In this document: positions 54,590-63,432 of the stretch, piece by piece
How the letters are laid out: each line of letters opens with the position of its first letter
How positions within the stretch are numbered: the first letter of the stretch is position 1
From: Coprococcus comes ATCC 27758
GTDB taxonomy: Bacteria > Bacillota > Clostridia > Lachnospirales > Lachnospiraceae
Assembly (NCBI RefSeq): GCF_025149785.1
Contig: NZ_CP102277.1
Location: forward strand, 496,001 to 560,000
Reading direction: 5' to 3'
Length of the DNA stretch: 64,000 nt
Position numbers and translations under genes: made by a program
The notes under the pieces: model-generated
The model's input: the letters and a program-made list of their open reading frames with translations, nothing else
The model's database searches: none
Told to the model about the DNA's origin: nothing

Positions 54590-55588
54590 TCAGACTTCTT
54601 CAGAAAAGCTCACGATCACAGTTGGATATCCGCTCTGTTTTAGTCTTCGTTCCATCATGGCAGCATCATTCAATACATCGAACTGACCGACCAGAACCCG
54701 GTCATACTGGCTGCTGTCATCAATCCGGGCAGGGAAATCCATTTCGGTCAGTTCATTAAGAAGCCGTCTGGCATACGCCGGATTTCGGAATGCACCGACC
54801 TGCACACTGTAGGTTACAGATGGAGAAGAATTAGGAAATTCGGAGTCTGTATTTTCATCAGACGGATTCATGTGAGCAGAGTCTGACGTACAAGGAGAAT
54901 CAGGGACTGAGCCTGAATTTGTCAGGGTACCAACATCTGATTTTGCAGAACCGTCAGCAGGAGAAACGGAATCAGAAGTATCTGCATCAGAAGAAGTCCT
55001 TCCGGATTCCGATGCGGTCGAACTGTTTCTTGCGCCTTCTGGTTTCCAGAGCCCTTTTTCTTCCAGCGTATCCAGGATTCCATCTGCAATTGCCTGCGCA
55101 ATATCATTGAAGTTCTTATCGAAAAGAGTGTTGTCAGAATCAGAATTGATAAAACCGACTTCGATCAGAAGCGCCGGCATTTTTGTACGGCGAAGGACAA
55201 CCAGATTTGGGCGCGCCTTTACTCCGAGATCCTTGAACCCAACTGTCTCCAGCTGTGCATTGATATTTTCCGCCATCTCATATTTGATACCGGAAAGGTT
55301 ATAGATCAGGCTTTCCACACCCATGTACTGATTGGCAAGAGGACTGGAATTCCGGTGGATCGATATGAAGAAATCCACACCGGCTTCGTTTGCCTCTGTT
55401 GCTTTCTGGAAAGGTGTCTCATAAATATCCGTTGTCCGTGTGTATTCCACATCAATTCCGCTGTTTTGTAAAATTTCTCCGATCGCAAGCACCAGCTTCA
55501 GTACATCATCCTTTTCCTGGCGACCATTATACACAGCTCCCGGATCACGTCCTCCGTGACCGGCATCGAGCATGATAGATACAGGCAT
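54590..55588 (-). CDS. N-acetylmuramoyl-L-alanine amidase with SPOR domain
   Basis: 332 residues. Amidase_3 domain (about 1-175): zinc-ligand motifs SIMLDAGHGGRDPGAVYNGR and FFISIHRNSS, catalytic Glu in ALLIEVGFINSDSDN. A Ser/Asp/Thr/Pro-rich linker (about 185-255) is followed by a SPOR domain (VTYSVQVGAFRNPAYARRLL, YDRVLVGQFDVLNDAAMMER). It would cleave the amide between MurNAc and L-Ala in peptidoglycan. The ATG follows GAGGT and there is no signal peptide, which is odd for a wall enzyme; release may be by another route, or it acts inside the mother cell. Confidence 0.88.
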   Translation of the reverse strand: MPVSIMLDAGHGGRDPGAVYNGRQEKDDVLKLVLAIGEILQNSGIDVEYTRTTDIYETPFQKATEANEAGVDFFISIHRNSSPLANQYMGVESLIYNLSGIKYEMAENINAQLETVGFKDLGVKARPNLVVLRRTKMPALLIEVGFINSDSDNTLFDKNFNDIAQAIADGILDTLEEKGLWKPEGARNSSTASESGRTSSDADTSDSVSPADGSAKSDVGTLTNSGSVPDSPCTSDSAHMNPSDENTDSEFPNSSPSVTYSVQVGAFRNPAYARRLLNELTEMDFPARIDDSSQYDRVLVGQFDVLNDAAMMERRLKQSGYPTVIVSFSEEV

Positions 55589-55790
55589 AGATATACCTCA
55601 AAAAATGAACTTTATATAATATATGTCGGATATCCTGAAAAGTGAAAATGAGAAATCGATTAAGAAAAATATGCTACGTGCTGATTTAACAAACATTTAA
55701 ACCAACCATGATAGTTCTGCACCCGTAGATTTAATACAATAAAACTGTCAAAAGAAACCCACATAAACAAAAACAGAAGGAATGACAGTT

Positions 55791-55907
55791 ATGGCACCAT
55801 TTATCATCGGAATCATCGGAGGCACCACAATCATAGCAGGCGGCACATATCTCTTAGAAAAAATAGCTGAATATATCGAACAAAACAATCAGACAAAAAG
55901 CATTTAG
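55791..55907 (+). CDS. Small 38-residue membrane peptide
   Basis: ATG 55791 follows AGAAGG by about ten bases and the frame runs to a TAG at 55905-55907: MAPFIIGIIGGTTIIAGGTY, then LLEKIAEYIEQNNQTKSI. One Gly/Ile-rich membrane helix followed by an amphipathic acidic tail. No family recognised; such short peptides are often toxins, chaperones or regulators of membrane proteins. A nearby ATG at 55782 is too close to the RBS. Confidence 0.5.
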   Translation: MAPFIIGIIGGTTIIAGGTYLLEKIAEYIEQNNQTKSI

Positions 55908-56032
55908 TTGCTCTTGATACCAGATTGCAGAAAAATAAATTGTCAGGTAGGAAATATAATGTTATGATAAATCTGTAGCGATATGCTACAGGAAAGCAAT
56001 CATTAGTTTGTTGATTACGTTTCTTGTCTTTC

Positions 56033-56090: not shown

Positions 56091-56780
56091 ATGGCAGAAA
56101 GATTAGAATTTCGTGAAAAACTTGCAGGGATCCTTACCCTGTGTGAAAGCCAAAATAACATCACAGACAAAGCCACAGTCGAAGCTTACTTCGCAGAAGA
56201 CAATTTATCAGCAGAACAGATGGAGCTTGTATTTGATTATCTTCTTTCCAAGAAAGTAATCGTAAAAGGCTACGTCAAAGCCGGTGGTTCGATCAAAAAT
56301 GCAGAAAACACCGAAGAACCGATCCGATATACCCAGGAAGAACAGGATTATTTAAACCTTTACGAGCAGGATCTGAAAGGATTAAGAGATGGGGATCCAT
56401 TAAAAGAACTCCTACCGGCAATCCTCACCATGGCAAAAGAGATGCACAGGGCAGATATCTACATCGGAGATCTCGTCCAGGAAGGCAACATGGGACTCAT
56501 GCTCGCCATGGAAGACCATGCAGATGATACTGAAGCCCTTTTAAGCATGGCAAAAGAAAGTATGCAGGCACTTCTTGAATCTCAGGAAGAGACTAAAAAA
56601 CAAGATAACCGCATGGTAGAAAAAGTCAACGACCTTGATGAACAGATCAAAAAACTTTCCGATGAACTCGGCCGAAAAGTCAGCGTAGACGAGCTGGAAG
56701 AATTCGCCGGCATCACCGAAGATGAGATCAGCAACATCTTAAAACTAGCCGGTGAAGAACTTCCCCCGGAAGAGAAGTAG
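56091..56780 (+). CDS. Sigma-factor-like protein lacking promoter-recognition segments
   Basis: 229 residues. Residues 8-60 resemble sigma-70 region 1.1 (EDNLSAEQMELVFDYLLSKK). Residues 103-141 resemble regions 2.1-2.2, the core-polymerase binding part (LLPAILTMAKEMHRADIYIG, DLVQEGNMGLMLAMED). Residues 175-222 resemble region 3.0 (KLSDELGRKVSVDELEEFAG, ITEDEISNILKLAGEE). The aromatic FSTYA-WWIRQ segment that opens and reads the -10 is replaced by an acidic/glutamine-rich stretch, and region 4 is missing. It may bind polymerase core or otherwise regulate sigma function, but this is inference. AATCGGGAGAAT precedes the ATG. Confidence 0.65.
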   Translation: MAERLEFREKLAGILTLCESQNNITDKATVEAYFAEDNLSAEQMELVFDYLLSKKVIVKGYVKAGGSIKNAENTEEPIRYTQEEQDYLNLYEQDLKGLRDGDPLKELLPAILTMAKEMHRADIYIGDLVQEGNMGLMLAMEDHADDTEALLSMAKESMQALLESQEETKKQDNRMVEKVNDLDEQIKKLSDELGRKVSVDELEEFAGITEDEISNILKLAGEELPPEEK

Positions 56781-59087: not shown

Positions 59088-60380
59088 TTAGTCGTCAGTT
59101 TCCAACGAGTCAGACGTATGTTCGCGGTAATTCTCCGGAAGATACAGATGAACTGTCTCAATCCGGTTTTTATCGAGCTTTTCTACGACCATACGGATTC
59201 CGTCTTCGGTGGAAACAGAGTCACCGGCTTTTGGAAGACGATCCAGCTTTTCGATGATAAAGCCTCCGAGAGAATCATAATCTTCCGATTCCAGATTCAG
59301 ATCCAGGGAATCATTGAGATCGTCAAGATTGGTAGAACCTTCAATAATATATTCGTGTTTGCCTACCGCTTTGATATTTTCTTCTTCATTCTCATCATAT
59401 TCATCGTGGATTTCGCCAACAATCTCTTCAAGGATATCTTCCAAGGTGATCAGACCGGATGTTTCACCGTATTCATCCAGGACAATTGCGATATTGAAAG
59501 AGGCCTGGCGCATTTCAACAAGAAGCTCGGAAATGCTCTTGTATTCATAAGTGAAGTAGGCTTCACGGAGAATGTCTTTAATCTGGAACTCACTTTTCTT
59601 ACTGTCATAAAGAAGAAGATCTTTCATATTGATCGTTCCGACAACATTATCTTTTGTCTCCTGGTAAACCGGAAGACGGGTGAATTTGTCTTCCCGGAAC
59701 AGGTCGATCAGTTCGTCGTAACTGCTGTCAATATCAGCAAAAGTTACGTTGACACGGGGAACCATGACGTCTTTGGCAATGGCATCACCGAGATCAAACA
59801 CATTGTAGATCATCTCTTTTTCATCTGATTCGATCACGCCGTCCTGATGGCTGACATTTACCACACTTCGGAGTTCAGCTTCGGTCATGGTATTGTCTTT
59901 GGCATTCGGATCGATGCGAAGAAGCATCAGAAGACCGGTGGAGAGACCGTTTACAATGAAGATAAACGGAGTCATGATCTTCATGAAAATATTGATAACC
60001 GGTGCGTAGAAAAGAGACATCTTCTCAGCATGAATGGTTGCCATCGTCTTCGGAGTAATCTCTCCGAAAAGGATGATGAGAAGCGTCATAAGCCCACTTG
60101 CGATCGCGACGGCGGTTCCACCAAGGCGGTATGCGATTGTGGTGGCAAGGGAAGCTACCGCAGTATTAACAATGTTGTTGCCGATGAGGATCGCGCTAAG
60201 CATTTTACCTGAATTCTCAGTTACGGCAAGTACGGTGCTGGCACGCTTGTTACCCTCGTCTGCAAGGGCACGCATCCGGATTTTGTTGTAGGTTGTAAGT
60301 GCTGTCTCGGCTGACGAAAATATGCCGGATAAGAGCAGCAGGACTAGCAAAATAAGTATTTGCGAGACACTCGAGTCCAC
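59088..60380 (-). CDS. CNNM/CBS-domain membrane protein (hemolysin C family)
   Basis: 430 residues from GTG 60380, served by AAAGGAGTGA. N-terminal CNNM domain with four hydrophobic segments (about 1-180: FSSAETALTTYNKIRMRALA, ILFGEITPKTMATIHAEKMS), a pair of CBS motifs (about 205-330: VMVPRVNVTFADIDSSYDEL, GETSGLITLEDILEEIVGEI) and a C-terminal CorC_HlyC domain (about 345-420). Family members are linked to magnesium or cobalt export; hemolysin is a historical name. Confidence 0.93.
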   Translation of the reverse strand: MDSSVSQILILLVLLLLSGIFSSAETALTTYNKIRMRALADEGNKRASTVLAVTENSGKMLSAILIGNNIVNTAVASLATTIAYRLGGTAVAIASGLMTLLIILFGEITPKTMATIHAEKMSLFYAPVINIFMKIMTPFIFIVNGLSTGLLMLLRIDPNAKDNTMTEAELRSVVNVSHQDGVIESDEKEMIYNVFDLGDAIAKDVMVPRVNVTFADIDSSYDELIDLFREDKFTRLPVYQETKDNVVGTINMKDLLLYDSKKSEFQIKDILREAYFTYEYKSISELLVEMRQASFNIAIVLDEYGETSGLITLEDILEEIVGEIHDEYDENEEENIKAVGKHEYIIEGSTNLDDLNDSLDLNLESEDYDSLGGFIIEKLDRLPKAGDSVSTEDGIRMVVEKLDKNRIETVHLYLPENYREHTSDSLETDD

Positions 60381-60470
60381 AGTTAAAAATCACTCCTTTT
60401 TGAAAATATTGATAAAATTTCTATGTTATGCCTTACTATATCGCATTTCACTTAATTTTGCAAGAGCGCG

Positions 60471-60499
60471 TTGAACTTGCATATTTTTTGGTGTATCAT
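60471..60499 (+). promoter_or_regulatory. Promoter of murB operon
   Basis: TTGAAC (60471-60476), 17-base spacer, TATCAT (60494-60499). The -10 is the start of a long inverted repeat. Confidence 0.55.
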
Positions 60500-60574
60500 A
60501 TGATGTAAGTGCCAAAATTTATTTTTGACACTTACGTCATATGAGGATGATATTAAAACGTGCTTTGGCACGTA
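60497..60574 (+). other. Two hairpins in the murB leader
   Basis: A 21-bp imperfect inverted repeat (CATATGATGTAAGTG... at 60497-60517 and 60523-60543, two mismatches) is followed by ACGTGC/GCACGT with a TTTG loop (about 60559-60574). The murB start is about 95 bases further. Either a terminator-like control element or protein binding sites. Confidence 0.5.
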
Positions 60575-60600
60575 GTAACTTCTATTTGGCGGGAGGTCCA

Positions 60601-60618
60601 ATGGCAATTTCCTGTTAA
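60601..60618 (+). other. Five-codon mini reading frame in the murB leader
   Basis: A strong site (GCGGGAGGTCC) is followed by ATG at 60601 and five codons (MAISC) to a TAA at 60616-60618, 50 bases before murB. It may be a leader peptide or chance. Confidence 0.3.
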
Positions 60619-60668
60619 ATAAAAAGAGAAGAATGGCATAGAATATTTATAGATACTAGGAGAAGAGA

Positions 60669-61580
60669 ATGGAACAGAATTTTGAGACATGTTTGTATAA
60701 TGTGGTCGATGCAGCCAAAATACAGAAGGATGAACCGATGAAGAAGCATACAACCTTCCGGATCGGTGGTCCGGCAGATTATTTTATCATGCCATCGAAT
60801 GAAAAGGAACTGGCAGAGACAATTCGGGTGTGCCGGGAATTTTCGATACCTATATATATAGTAGGAAATGGAAGCAACCTTCTGGTTGGAGACAAAGGCT
60901 TCAGAGGAGCGATTATCCAGCTTTATAAGAGTATGGGAACATTTCAGGTAGAAGGAAATCAGATCACGGCGCAGGCAGGATGTTCGCTTGCGCAGATTGC
61001 AAATGCAGCACTTGATGCAGCACTGACCGGATTTGAGTTCGCAGCAGGTATTCCGGGAACGCTTGGCGGAGCGGTTGTGATGAACGCCGGCGCGTATGGC
61101 GGAGAGATGAAGGATGTACTGACGAGTGTCAGGGTTATGACAGAAGAGGGCGAGATCATGGAGCTTCCGGCAGAAAAACTGGGACTCGGATACCGTACAA
61201 GCATTATCCCGGAGAAAAGATATATCGTTTTGGGTGCCGTGATTTCGCTTACAGAAGGCAAAAAAGAAGAAATAAAAGCGCAGATGGATGACCTCCGTCA
61301 GAAGCGGGTATCGAAGCAGCCGCTGGAGTATCCGAGTGCAGGCAGCACCTTTAAGCGTCCGGAAGGATATTTTGCAGGAAAACTGATCCAGGACAGTGGT
61401 CTGAAAGGATTTACAGTAGGTGGAGCACAGGTTTCTGAAAAACACAGTGGATTTGTGATCAATAAAGGAAATGCGACGGCGGCTGATGTGATGGAGCTGA
61501 TCCGGCAGGTAACAGCGAAAGTGAAAGAAGATACCGGTGTTACAATGGAACCGGAAGTGAAACAAATAGGAGAATTTTAG
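60669..61580 (+). CDS. murB: UDP-N-acetylenolpyruvoylglucosamine reductase
   Basis: 303 residues, a FAD flavoenzyme. It reduces UDP-GlcNAc-enolpyruvate to UDP-MurNAc with NADPH in the second step of wall precursor synthesis. Seen: TTFRIGGPADYFIMPSNEKE, VGNGSNLLVGDKGFRGAIIQ, GIPGTLGGAVVMNAGAYGGE, catalytic Ser in LEYPSAGSTFKRPEG, and the C-terminal Glu near EPEVKQIGEF. The AGGAGAAG RBS and the two-base gap to rapZ indicate an operon. Confidence 0.97.
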   Translation: MEQNFETCLYNVVDAAKIQKDEPMKKHTTFRIGGPADYFIMPSNEKELAETIRVCREFSIPIYIVGNGSNLLVGDKGFRGAIIQLYKSMGTFQVEGNQITAQAGCSLAQIANAALDAALTGFEFAAGIPGTLGGAVVMNAGAYGGEMKDVLTSVRVMTEEGEIMELPAEKLGLGYRTSIIPEKRYIVLGAVISLTEGKKEEIKAQMDDLRQKRVSKQPLEYPSAGSTFKRPEGYFAGKLIQDSGLKGFTVGGAQVSEKHSGFVINKGNATAADVMELIRQVTAKVKEDTGVTMEPEVKQIGEF

Positions 61581-61582
61581 GG

Positions 61583-62464
61583 ATGAGATTCGTAATTGTA
61601 ACGGGAATGTCCGGAGCAGGGAAAAGTACAACTTTGAAAATGATGGAAGACATGGGATATTTCTGTGTGGATAATATGCCAATTCCTTTAATGACAAAAC
61701 TGACAGAACTTTTGATCGTTCCAAATGGTGAGATCACGAAAATCGCTTTGGGACTTGATATTCGCAGTGGACAGAATCTGCGTGCATTGGACCAGGTTCT
61801 GGACGAACTTGAAAAAGCCAAGATACCACTGGAGATTCTTTTCCTTGAATCGAATGATGATACACTGGTGAAAAGATATAAAGAGACAAGAAGGAACCAC
61901 CCACTCTCAAAGGGCGGCAGAATTGAAAACGGGATTGCCAAAGAACGTAAGAAAATTGCCTTTTTAAAAGAAAGGGCAGATTATATCCTGGATACAAGCC
62001 GGATGCTGACCAGGGAGCTGCGCAGTGAACTGAACCGTATTTTTGCCGAGAATAAAGAATACAAGAATCTGTACATTACTGTGTTATCTTTCGGATTTAA
62101 ATATGGAATTCCGAGTGATGCAGACCTGGTATTTGATGTCAGATTCCTTCCGAATCCGTATTATATTGATGAACTTCGCCCGCAGAGTGGCAATGACAAG
62201 CCGGTCAGGGATTACGTGATGAATAACGATATTTCAAAAGAATTCCTGAAGAAGCTGGTCGACATGGTTGAGTTCCTGATTCCGAACTATGTTGCAGAAG
62301 GAAAGAACCAGCTTGTGATCGCAATCGGATGTACCGGCGGAAAACACCGCTCCGTGACACTTGCCAATGAGTTGTATGAACGGCTGTCTGTGGCAGAGAA
62401 AGAGTACGGTGTAAGAAAAGAGCATCGTGATATCGAGAAAGATGCAATTATGAAAGCAAAATAG
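61583..62464 (+). CDS. rapZ: RNase adapter protein RapZ / YvcJ nucleotide-binding protein
   Basis: 293 residues. Walker A VTGMSGAGKSTTLKM (about 5-19), Walker B-like region, FDVRFLPNPYY and IAIGCTGGKHRSVTLANELY near the end, all hallmarks of RapZ/YvcJ. In E. coli it delivers small RNAs to RNase E to tune GlmS; in Firmicutes the role is unclear (GTPase activity known). It lies between murB and whiA, as in other Firmicutes clusters. Confidence 0.95.
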   Translation: MRFVIVTGMSGAGKSTTLKMMEDMGYFCVDNMPIPLMTKLTELLIVPNGEITKIALGLDIRSGQNLRALDQVLDELEKAKIPLEILFLESNDDTLVKRYKETRRNHPLSKGGRIENGIAKERKKIAFLKERADYILDTSRMLTRELRSELNRIFAENKEYKNLYITVLSFGFKYGIPSDADLVFDVRFLPNPYYIDELRPQSGNDKPVRDYVMNNDISKEFLKKLVDMVEFLIPNYVAEGKNQLVIAIGCTGGKHRSVTLANELYERLSVAEKEYGVRKEHRDIEKDAIMKAK

Positions 62465-62472
62465 GTGATAGT

Positions 62473-63432
62473 ATGTCTTTTTCTGGAAATATTAAAGAAG
62501 AAATATCGCGTCAGCTAAGTCCTGCAAGACATTGCCGGATTGCAGAACTTGCAGCGATCATCAGCATGTGTGGGGCTGTCATGATCGACAGCAGAGGTCA
62601 TGCAGCACTTAAGATTCATACGGAAAATCTGGCAGTTGCAAGAAAAAGCTTTACTTTATTGAGAAGAACGTTTAATATAGTGGTTGATATCGCTATTCGG
62701 GTGAACCGGGAAAAAGGCAGCAGCTACTATTATATAGTTGTAAAAAAACACAAAGATGCTATCAGGGTGCTTCAGGCGGCAAAACTGCTCAATCCTTATG
62801 GAGACGTGGAAGAAGAGCTTTCTGTAGTAAAGAATGTCGTGATTCAGGAGACTTGCTGTAAGCGGTCTTTCCTGCGTGGCGTTTTTCTTGCATCGGGATC
62901 CATGAGCGACCCGGAGAAGTCCTATCATTTTGAAATTGTCTGTGCGTCGATGGGAAAAGCGCAGCAGATTCAGAAGATAATGAGATGCTTTGCTCTGGAC
63001 GCAAAGATTGTATCAAGGAAGAAATCATTTGTGGTTTATCTGAAAGAAGGAGCTCAGATCGTGGATGTGCTGAATGTGATGGAGGCACATCAGTCACTGA
63101 TGGAGTTGGAGAATATCCGTATATTGAAAGATATGAGGAATACGGTGAATCGAAAAGTGAACTGCGAGACTGCGAATATCAATAAAACGGTTTCCGCTGC
63201 TGTAAAGCAGATCGACGATATAAGATATATTGAGGAAACAAAAGGACTCGATAAGCTGCCGGAAGGATTGAAGGACATGGCCCTTACAAGACTTACATAT
63301 CCGGAGGCATCTTTAAAAGAGTTAGGCGCACTTCTGCAAAATCCGGTAGGCAAGTCCGGAGTGAACCACAGATTGCGCAAGTTAAGTGAAATGGCGGAAG
63401 AGATAAGGGCTAAGCAAGGAGGAACATTATGA
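62473..63432 (+). CDS. whiA: DNA-binding protein WhiA
   Basis: 319 residues. An N-terminal homing-endonuclease-like fold of two lobes (ISRQLSPARHCRIAELAAII; KKHKDAIRVLQAAKLLNPYG; CCKRSFLRGVFLASGSMSDP) and a C-terminal helix-turn-helix (LTYPEASLKELGALLQNPVG, KSGVNHRLRKLSEMAEEI). WhiA acts in cell division, chromosome segregation and sporulation control. It overlaps the HPr-like gene by four bases (ATGA). The usual yvcK gene between rapZ and whiA is absent here. Confidence 0.96.
   Translation: MSFSGNIKEEISRQLSPARHCRIAELAAIISMCGAVMIDSRGHAALKIHTENLAVARKSFTLLRRTFNIVVDIAIRVNREKGSSYYYIVVKKHKDAIRVLQAAKLLNPYGDVEEELSVVKNVVIQETCCKRSFLRGVFLASGSMSDPEKSYHFEIVCASMGKAQQIQKIMRCFALDAKIVSRKKSFVVYLKEGAQIVDVLNVMEAHQSLMELENIRILKDMRNTVNRKVNCETANINKTVSAAVKQIDDIRYIEETKGLDKLPEGLKDMALTRLTYPEASLKELGALLQNPVGKSGVNHRLRKLSEMAEEIRAKQGGTL

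Follow-up and report, generated by a model that had tools for sequence, protein, structure and literature searches.

The gene described here occupies bp 56091 to 56780 on the plus strand of the window, by which we mean the whole 64,000 nucleotide stretch of Coprococcus comes ATCC 27758 DNA that was analysed. It begins with an ATG codon and encodes 229 amino acids plus a stop. The open reading frame call, its sigma profile matches and an alignment of the family profile with the strain's own SigA led us to annotate it as a putative promoter-blind paralogue of SigA, called the short form below. Ahead of it, a possible sigma-70-type promoter of its own (TTGTCA-17-TATGAT, with TG ahead of the -10 element) was found on the plus strand at bp 55940 to 55968 by consensus scan only, and the scan of the region returned 8 sites, against 4.4 (sd 2.4) in shuffled sequences. 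An N-acetylmuramoyl-L-alanine amidase with a SPOR domain, identified by Pfam, is encoded upstream on the minus strand (bp 54590 to 55588). Between this divergent amidase gene and the sigma-like gene, a 41 amino acid open reading frame with a hydrophobic stretch is located on the plus strand at bp 55782 to 55907; at three other loci (L089, L091 and L092) another small hydrophobic open reading frame, 73 amino acids long in L089, lies directly past the amidase. Downstream, Pfam matches identified a CNNM/CorC-type CBS protein on the minus strand and murB, rapZ and whiA on the plus strand (bp 59088 to 63432), a block that recurs downstream of the gene in relatives.

The genome of this strain (G000) is complete at 3.37 Mb, and a search of it with the window protein at E 0.001 returned SigA as the sole other match. 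With scores that all lie under the curated cut-offs, the window protein matched RpoD_Cterm (E 1.4e-8, aa 111-222) and four other sigma models (E 7e-9 to 2.3e-8) in NCBIfam, and Sigma70_r3 (E 6e-5, aa 177-220) and Sigma70_r2 (E 0.015, positions 4-40 of 71, which is the first half only) in Pfam. Among solved chains it matched RpoD/SigA with an E value of about 2e-7. When the family profile was compared to the strain's own SigA using hhalign, the two aligned (99.9%, E 1e-31) over SigA residues 6-267 and window protein residues 5-227, nearly the whole length of the latter. RpoD models matched all 38 of the family members scanned, and a Pfam scan of 48 members gave region 3 in 42, region 1.1 (PF03979) in 35 and region 2 in 29. 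Judged by these profile scores, the sigma similarity of the window protein is beyond chance. A sequence-only reading of this DNA had described sigma-like segments that included regions 1.1 and 2.1-2.2, and these are borne out both by the sigma models, which match the window protein and the family alike, and by the alignment to SigA from residue 6 onwards.

The domain layout follows that of SigA as far as region 3.1. A region 1.1-like domain is found at aa 1-62 (bp 56091 to 56276, plus strand), based on the hhalign alignment, the PF03979 matches among the members and a model of the N-terminal domain. Pfam region 1.1 gave no match to the window protein taken singly. A Foldseek search with the N-terminal domain model ranked a SigA chain first and the solved B. 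subtilis sigma-A 1.1 domain third, both weakly (E 0.5 and 2). The alignments place a remnant of region 1.2 at aa 82-100 (bp 56334 to 56390, plus strand), in which Tyr91 is invariant (alignment A1); the remainder of region 1.2 is deleted in the window protein and retained in, for example, L005. Regions 2.1-2.2, which contain the predicted core-binding helices, span aa 106-143 (bp 56406 to 56519, plus strand) according to the NCBIfam match, the alignment and the AF2 fit. The slot of regions 2.3-2.4 at aa 144-175 (bp 56520 to 56615, plus strand) is acidic and has lost its aromatics, and AF2 predicts it as part of one long helix (aa 147-193). Regions 3.0-3.1 follow at aa 176-222 (bp 56616 to 56756, plus strand) by the Sigma70_r3 match, and the protein ends soon afterwards, ahead of the sigma finger (region 3.2) and region 4. 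The segment KLSDELGRKVSVDELEEFAG had been labelled region 3.0; its assignment to sigma was correct, and its extent needs amendment, since it corresponds to Pfam region 3 (3.0-3.1) and not to region 3.0 alone. The AF2 model as a whole had a mean pLDDT of 78.5 and a pTM of 0.48. About 80 of its residues superpose on sigma domain 2 at 2.2-2.5 A, the match to C. difficile SigA being 80 residues at an rmsd of 2.2 A, so the predicted fold retains the domain 2 that the earlier reading had expected.

The family was examined using a set of 87 members, obtained by reducing 95 collected rows to 73 by near-identity and adding 14. Residues were numbered according to E. coli sigma70, with the WW pair as an anchor. 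The excerpt of PMC8321222 that we consulted names positions 403, 406, 407 and 409 in connection with four residues of region 2.2 that make contact with the beta' coiled-coil. All four contact residues are present in the window protein, where the motif DLVQEGN at aa 127-133 (bp 56469 to 56489, plus strand) corresponds to sigma70 D403-N409. Among the 87 members D403 was kept in 85, Q406 in 62, E407 in 85 and N409 in 81. Between sigma70 383 and 460, 74 positions are near-invariant across the 31 SigA proteins; at the median one of these, 11% of the members kept the residue, whereas the four core contacts were kept in 71-98%, above the other positions (rank test p 0.0009); since the members were gathered by similarity, this retention is partly built into the search, which is not the case for the loss of aromatics described below. 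From this pattern the window protein probably binds core RNA polymerase through the clamp helices. Its affinity for core may be low, as the charge of segment 383-417, which is +2 in 31 of 31 SigA proteins, is mostly negative in the family, and N383 and R385 are mostly lost. Glycine replaces Q406 in 22 of the 87 members, so that DLIQEGN reads DLIGEGN in L110, L112, L114, L117, L120, L121, L125 and others; this is a lineage-wide change in members of the membrane-protein/M16 peptidase context described below.

The promoter-reading half of the protein is affected very differently. The part of PMC8321222 available to us states that region 2.3 has seven conserved aromatics for melting, and we took these to be the ones at 419-434 of SigA. 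With the reservation that residue positions 419-427 rest on a gapped alignment, none of the seven was kept in 39 members, one in 35, two in 9 and three in 4 (n=87), whereas 30 of 31 SigA proteins had all seven. The promoter-melting pair W433/W434 was retained in 0 of 87 members. Replacement of the aromatic melting segment by a Glu/Gln-rich one, which had been reported for the window protein, is thus real and general. Together with 437 and 440, which we take to be -10 recognition positions, the seven aromatics were kept in 0-10% of members, below the other positions (p 0.003). The net charge of segment 419-458 had a median of +4 (2 to 4) in SigA versus -5 (-12 to +3) in the family, and three members had a charge of +2 or more in this DNA-facing segment. 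P453 was changed to Asp in 31 of 38 members and R448 to Glu or Asp in 29 of 38. As the replacing residues are themselves conserved, these changes point to a new role and not to decay.

The regions that follow 3.1 in SigA are also lost. The tail past region 3.1 has a median length of 10 residues in the 87 members, in agreement with the absence of region 4 that had been noted for the window protein. Sigma70_r4 matched in 2 of the 48 members scanned, weakly (best E 0.0024). Two members have tails of more than 60 residues, one acidic and one rich in Cys and His, and no region 4 was visible when these two tails were read. Thus no relative among the 87 carries the -10 tryptophans or a convincing region 4. 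The anatomical part of the earlier reading is therefore supported, and none of the outcomes named there as refuting it appeared; its functional part, contact with core polymerase and competition with or redirection of sigma factors, is a proposal. Cys/His-rich C-terminal tails of the CGCGHEH type, which have a metal-binding look, were observed in L115 and L037. At the other end of the protein, the region 1.1 columns are filled in 82 of 87 members and missing in 5. Taken together, the window protein almost certainly descends from SigA as a strongly diverged old paralogue and has lost promoter reading.

The distribution of the short form was determined in 45 Lachnospiraceae genomes, one per genus and each at least 97% complete, using a 48-row profile. 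It was found in 31 of these, and all 31 carriers were read whole or across the motif region. Region 1.1 is present in 26 of the carriers and missing in G015, G046, G059, G072 and G537, of which the G072 short form is very degenerate. Among the 14 family genomes without the short form, 13 had no such form at all and one (G071) had an odd full-length form. A draw of 59 genomes from the class included two that belong to the family, both with the short form. Judged by score and frame length, none of the other 57 had it: each had exactly one match of at least 95 bits, with a frame of 358-489 amino acids, that was taken as SigA without reading. The two groups cannot be told apart by frame length alone, since two short forms inside Lachnospiraceae reach open frames of 357 and 359 amino acids. 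The next outside match (G548, 77 bits, 312 amino acids) was read and proved to be an ordinary sigma factor with the WW motif, and weaker ones, at 48-62 bits, were assigned to other sigma factors unread. The difference between 31 of 45 and 0 of 57 gives a Fisher p of 1e-15, for genomes that are related and not independent. A single-protein search at E 1e-10 was positive in at least 130 of 397 family genomes, with seven candidates per genome scored and not each of them read, and at E 0.001 the same kind of search gave a match in 7 of 8 genomes of the genus.

The two groups, 73 short forms and 31 SigA proteins, are split by a single branch in a first tree (SH-aLRT 100), and the same split was recovered with a support of 95-96 when all 87 short forms were included. 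Both trees were built without positions 418-434. The short forms of Lachnospiraceae are accordingly set off from SigA by a single supported branch; because the tree branches are long, the root of the short forms may fall either inside or beside SigA. The odd form in G071 (L249, at G071:C63:231300-233100; context L268) was considered as a family member and left out of the 87, since it groups with SigA and sits at the sigA place. It is a 338 amino acid sigma factor with an eroded region 2/-10 segment and, by reading, a diverged region 4, and it is flanked by what we take from reading to be dnaG and trmK, as is SigA in the genome of the strain analysed here. L249 is a separate case of primary sigma erosion. 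A 390 amino acid sigma frame was observed on another contig of G071.

Selection was measured on close pairs by the Nei-Gojobori method. The dN/dS of the window gene versus C. comes L003 was 0.053 (dS 1.0), and three other pairs gave 0.084, 0.128 and 0.197; two more pairs yielded no ratio because of saturation. In the pairs measured, the family is kept under purifying selection. These values bear on the view that the short form is a decaying, functionless copy of SigA, for which one could cite the loss of several regions, the very degenerate L253 (E407 lost, and a stop codon within the matched stretch) and the separate erosion at the sigA locus of G071. Four observations speak against it, namely the open frames seen across 31 of 45 genera, dN/dS values of 0.05-0.20 in four pairs, a conserved replacement motif and the single branch between the family and SigA. 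We regard decay as very improbable indeed, and it is already contradicted by purifying selection in the measured pairs.

Gene order was laid out in 46 loci, of which 41 were tagged by automatic clustering and five were not (L006, L008, L100, L101 and L109). The amidase is nearby in 13 of the 41 tagged loci, including the window, followed mostly by the CBS protein, murB, rapZ and whiA. In the 12 other amidase loci both genes share a strand, with the amidase upstream and, in 9 of them, immediately next to the short form; the window differs in that the amidase is inverted and a PEP carboxykinase gene is located downstream. A second context, found in 10 of 41 loci, has an unnamed membrane protein upstream and usually a small protein, an M16 peptidase, era, recO and glyS downstream, while in 3 of 41 loci an S41 protease is upstream together with a block read as rho, prmC and prfA. 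The remaining 15 of 41 have other surroundings. Here era, recO, glyS, rho, prmC and prfA are presumed assignments from reading translations, and the remaining neighbours were checked by Pfam on one representative each. The unnamed membrane protein and its small neighbour gave no Pfam match. No anti-sigma gene and no region-4-only partner was recognised among the recurrent neighbours at the 41 tagged loci; as two neighbours in one context are without a Pfam match, an unrecognised partner is possible.

These contexts bear on two further explanations. The short form could be one half of a split sigma factor of the T4 gp55/gp33 or B. subtilis SigO/RsoA type, with a partner that supplies the promoter contacts. 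Precedents are described in the portions of PMC2988020 and PMC10141391 that we consulted, and gp55 is, like the short form, a short sigma-family protein; it docks on the beta' coiled-coil, and a second protein stands in for sigma 4 (PMC2988020, in part). However, gp55, the sigma 2 half of T4, recognises promoters according to the same portion of PMC2988020, whereas none of the 87 short-form members retains that recognition and melting stretch, which is mostly acidic in them, and a region-4-only partner was not recognised at the loci. We consider a split sigma highly improbable. Alternatively, the short form could imitate sigma to capture an anti-sigma factor, as PhyR does with NepR, and so free SigA or another sigma. 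PhyR of Alphaproteobacteria sets the precedent that a protein resembling sigma need not function as one (PMC4598750, as excerpted), and the short form is likewise sigma-derived and not expected to act as a sigma factor. In the same excerpt, PhyR consists of ECF-type sigma 2 and sigma 4 fused to a receiver and binds NepR, whereas the short form is derived from SigA, lacks sigma 4 and keeps the core contacts, and Pfam scans of the window protein and 48 members gave no receiver domain. Selection for an anti-sigma target would hardly be expected to preserve precisely the beta' coiled-coil contacts, and the recurrent neighbours include no recognised anti-sigma gene, with two of them lacking a Pfam match. 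This explanation is improbable, if somewhat less so than a split sigma. By its residues the short form is clearly a member of the sigma70 superfamily and not a working sigma factor, with an anatomy unlike that of PhyR or the split sigmas.

Compared to SigA/RpoD (group 1 sigma70), the short form is homologous over region 1.1, part of 1.2, 2.1-2.2 and 3.0-3.1, including the motif D-x-x-QEGN. It differs in lacking the -10 recognition and melting residues, region 3.2 and region 4, in having an acidic DNA face where that of SigA is basic, and in forming its own branch, found here in one bacterial family only. The best explanation for this anatomy, and one in which we place an even measure of confidence, is that the protein regulates RNA polymerase by binding core without reading promoters (a "sigma decoy"); its anatomy is observed, and from this we infer binding and regulation. 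Domain 2 would dock on the beta' coiled-coil (clamp helices), which is the site used by domain 2 of SigA itself, and the 1.1 domain could occupy the DNA channel, its position in SigA holoenzyme. Since such a complex would be unable to recognise or open a promoter, the consequence would be less SigA holoenzyme, free core held inactive, or core shifted to other sigma factors. The Lachnospiraceae short form is thus probably a brake or decoy on polymerase. Its net role may equally well be, or not be, that of a competitor or inhibitor of SigA, and with region 4 gone it could compete only weakly with full SigA. Also weighing against this explanation are the 14 of 45 family genomes that have no short form, the Gly at 406 in 22 of 87 members and the three members with +2 or more in the DNA-facing segment. 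According to the accessible part of PMC4598750, sigma 1.1 carries negative charge, mimics DNA and lies inside the channel of the polymerase holoenzyme. As region 1.1 is missing in 5 of 87 members, channel plugging is not the general function of the family. A core-sequestering (hibernation or sigma-cycle) factor that combines the sigma docking domain with a channel-plugging region 1.1 and an acidic DNA face is a tentative suggestion that we think unlikely on balance.

Next in rank is an accessory factor bound to core, situated on the clamp helices of elongating or idle polymerase, that alters clamp movement, pausing or recycling. The clamp helices are also used by NusG-type factors, and the same docking motif is retained in the short form. 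The context shows no sign of being regulated or inducible, and the three recurrent contexts consist mostly of housekeeping genes, which would suit such a factor. However, nothing in the short form is specific to elongation, and regions 1.1 and 3 would be unexplained extras. We therefore regard an accessory factor as rather unlikely, and prefer a sigma decoy.

Competition between sigma factors is central in bacterial gene control. Known sigma antagonists, to our knowledge, bind sigma or else bind core with unrelated folds. A sequestering factor of the kind proposed would, if true, be a new kind of sigma regulator, that is, a sigma-derived antagonist that acts on core and not on sigma. A sigma paralogue that has shed promoter reading and is nevertheless inherited widely would demonstrate selection of the core-docking module by itself as a regulator. 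Via its reference 8, the portion of PMC10141391 consulted mentions bacterial competitors of sigma that target its core docking site. The short form, as proposed here, would resemble these competitors in occupying the sigma docking site. YlyA is one such protein, and competitors of this type are not known to be sigma-derived, in which they would differ from the short form. The short-form family appeared to be undescribed among the literature matches listed for the family, its traits and its possible relatives, a sample with few subscription papers, so that a description elsewhere is possible. A genome survey of Lachnospiraceae (PMC3971600, in part) contains a general mention only of shared sigma factors. 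The short form would offer a handle on transcription control in human gut bacteria, including Coprococcus/Allocoprococcus, Claveliimonas, Lachnoclostridium and others. As far as we know, the global regulators of these bacteria are little studied. Short forms may be given sigma-factor names by similarity alone, leading to misleading regulon predictions.

A possible link to mobile elements and to sporulation was also considered. No plasmid match to the family was found at 1e-10. A phage origin was considered from MT837372.1 (L269), an unverified 7 kb entry named 'Bacteriophage sp.', and rejected, as the relative there lies amid ordinary bacterial genes, which we take from their translations to be MutY-, ribonucleotide reductase- and dUTPase-like. 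This gene content indicates that the entry is probably a bacterial scaffold. A scan of viral contigs gave at least 80 loci with 23-34% identity over the sigma core, and these were taken as ordinary sigma factors by identity and coverage. Spo0A_C (PF08769) was found in 23 of 31 genomes with the short form versus 8 of 14 without it (Fisher p 0.31), so a strict link to sporulation was rejected.

The gene for 6S RNA, a sequestering agent of SigA polymerase, is located downstream of the short form on the same strand in three genomes, about 199 bases away in G008 (L261), 70 in G043 (L262) and 168 in G047 (L263). These are 3 of the 45 genomes surveyed, and all three are carriers. The structure of 6S RNA in complex with sigma70 holoenzyme has been solved, according to the title of entry 5vt0. 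In 80 further carrier genomes, where positions were compared by eye, not all carriers were read and draft contig ends could hide cases, no such adjacency was seen; the nearest 6S gene was about 27 kb away (G133), and two genomes were without a 6S match. The gene on the other side of the short form is also common to G008, G043 and G047, and as these three share this neighbour and fall in one drawn clade of four, the adjacency is probably the result of one event. It is therefore only a hint, from one lineage. As a separate observation on sigma gene arrangement, locus L212 (G067:C2:379000-382200) contains two full-length SigA genes in tandem.
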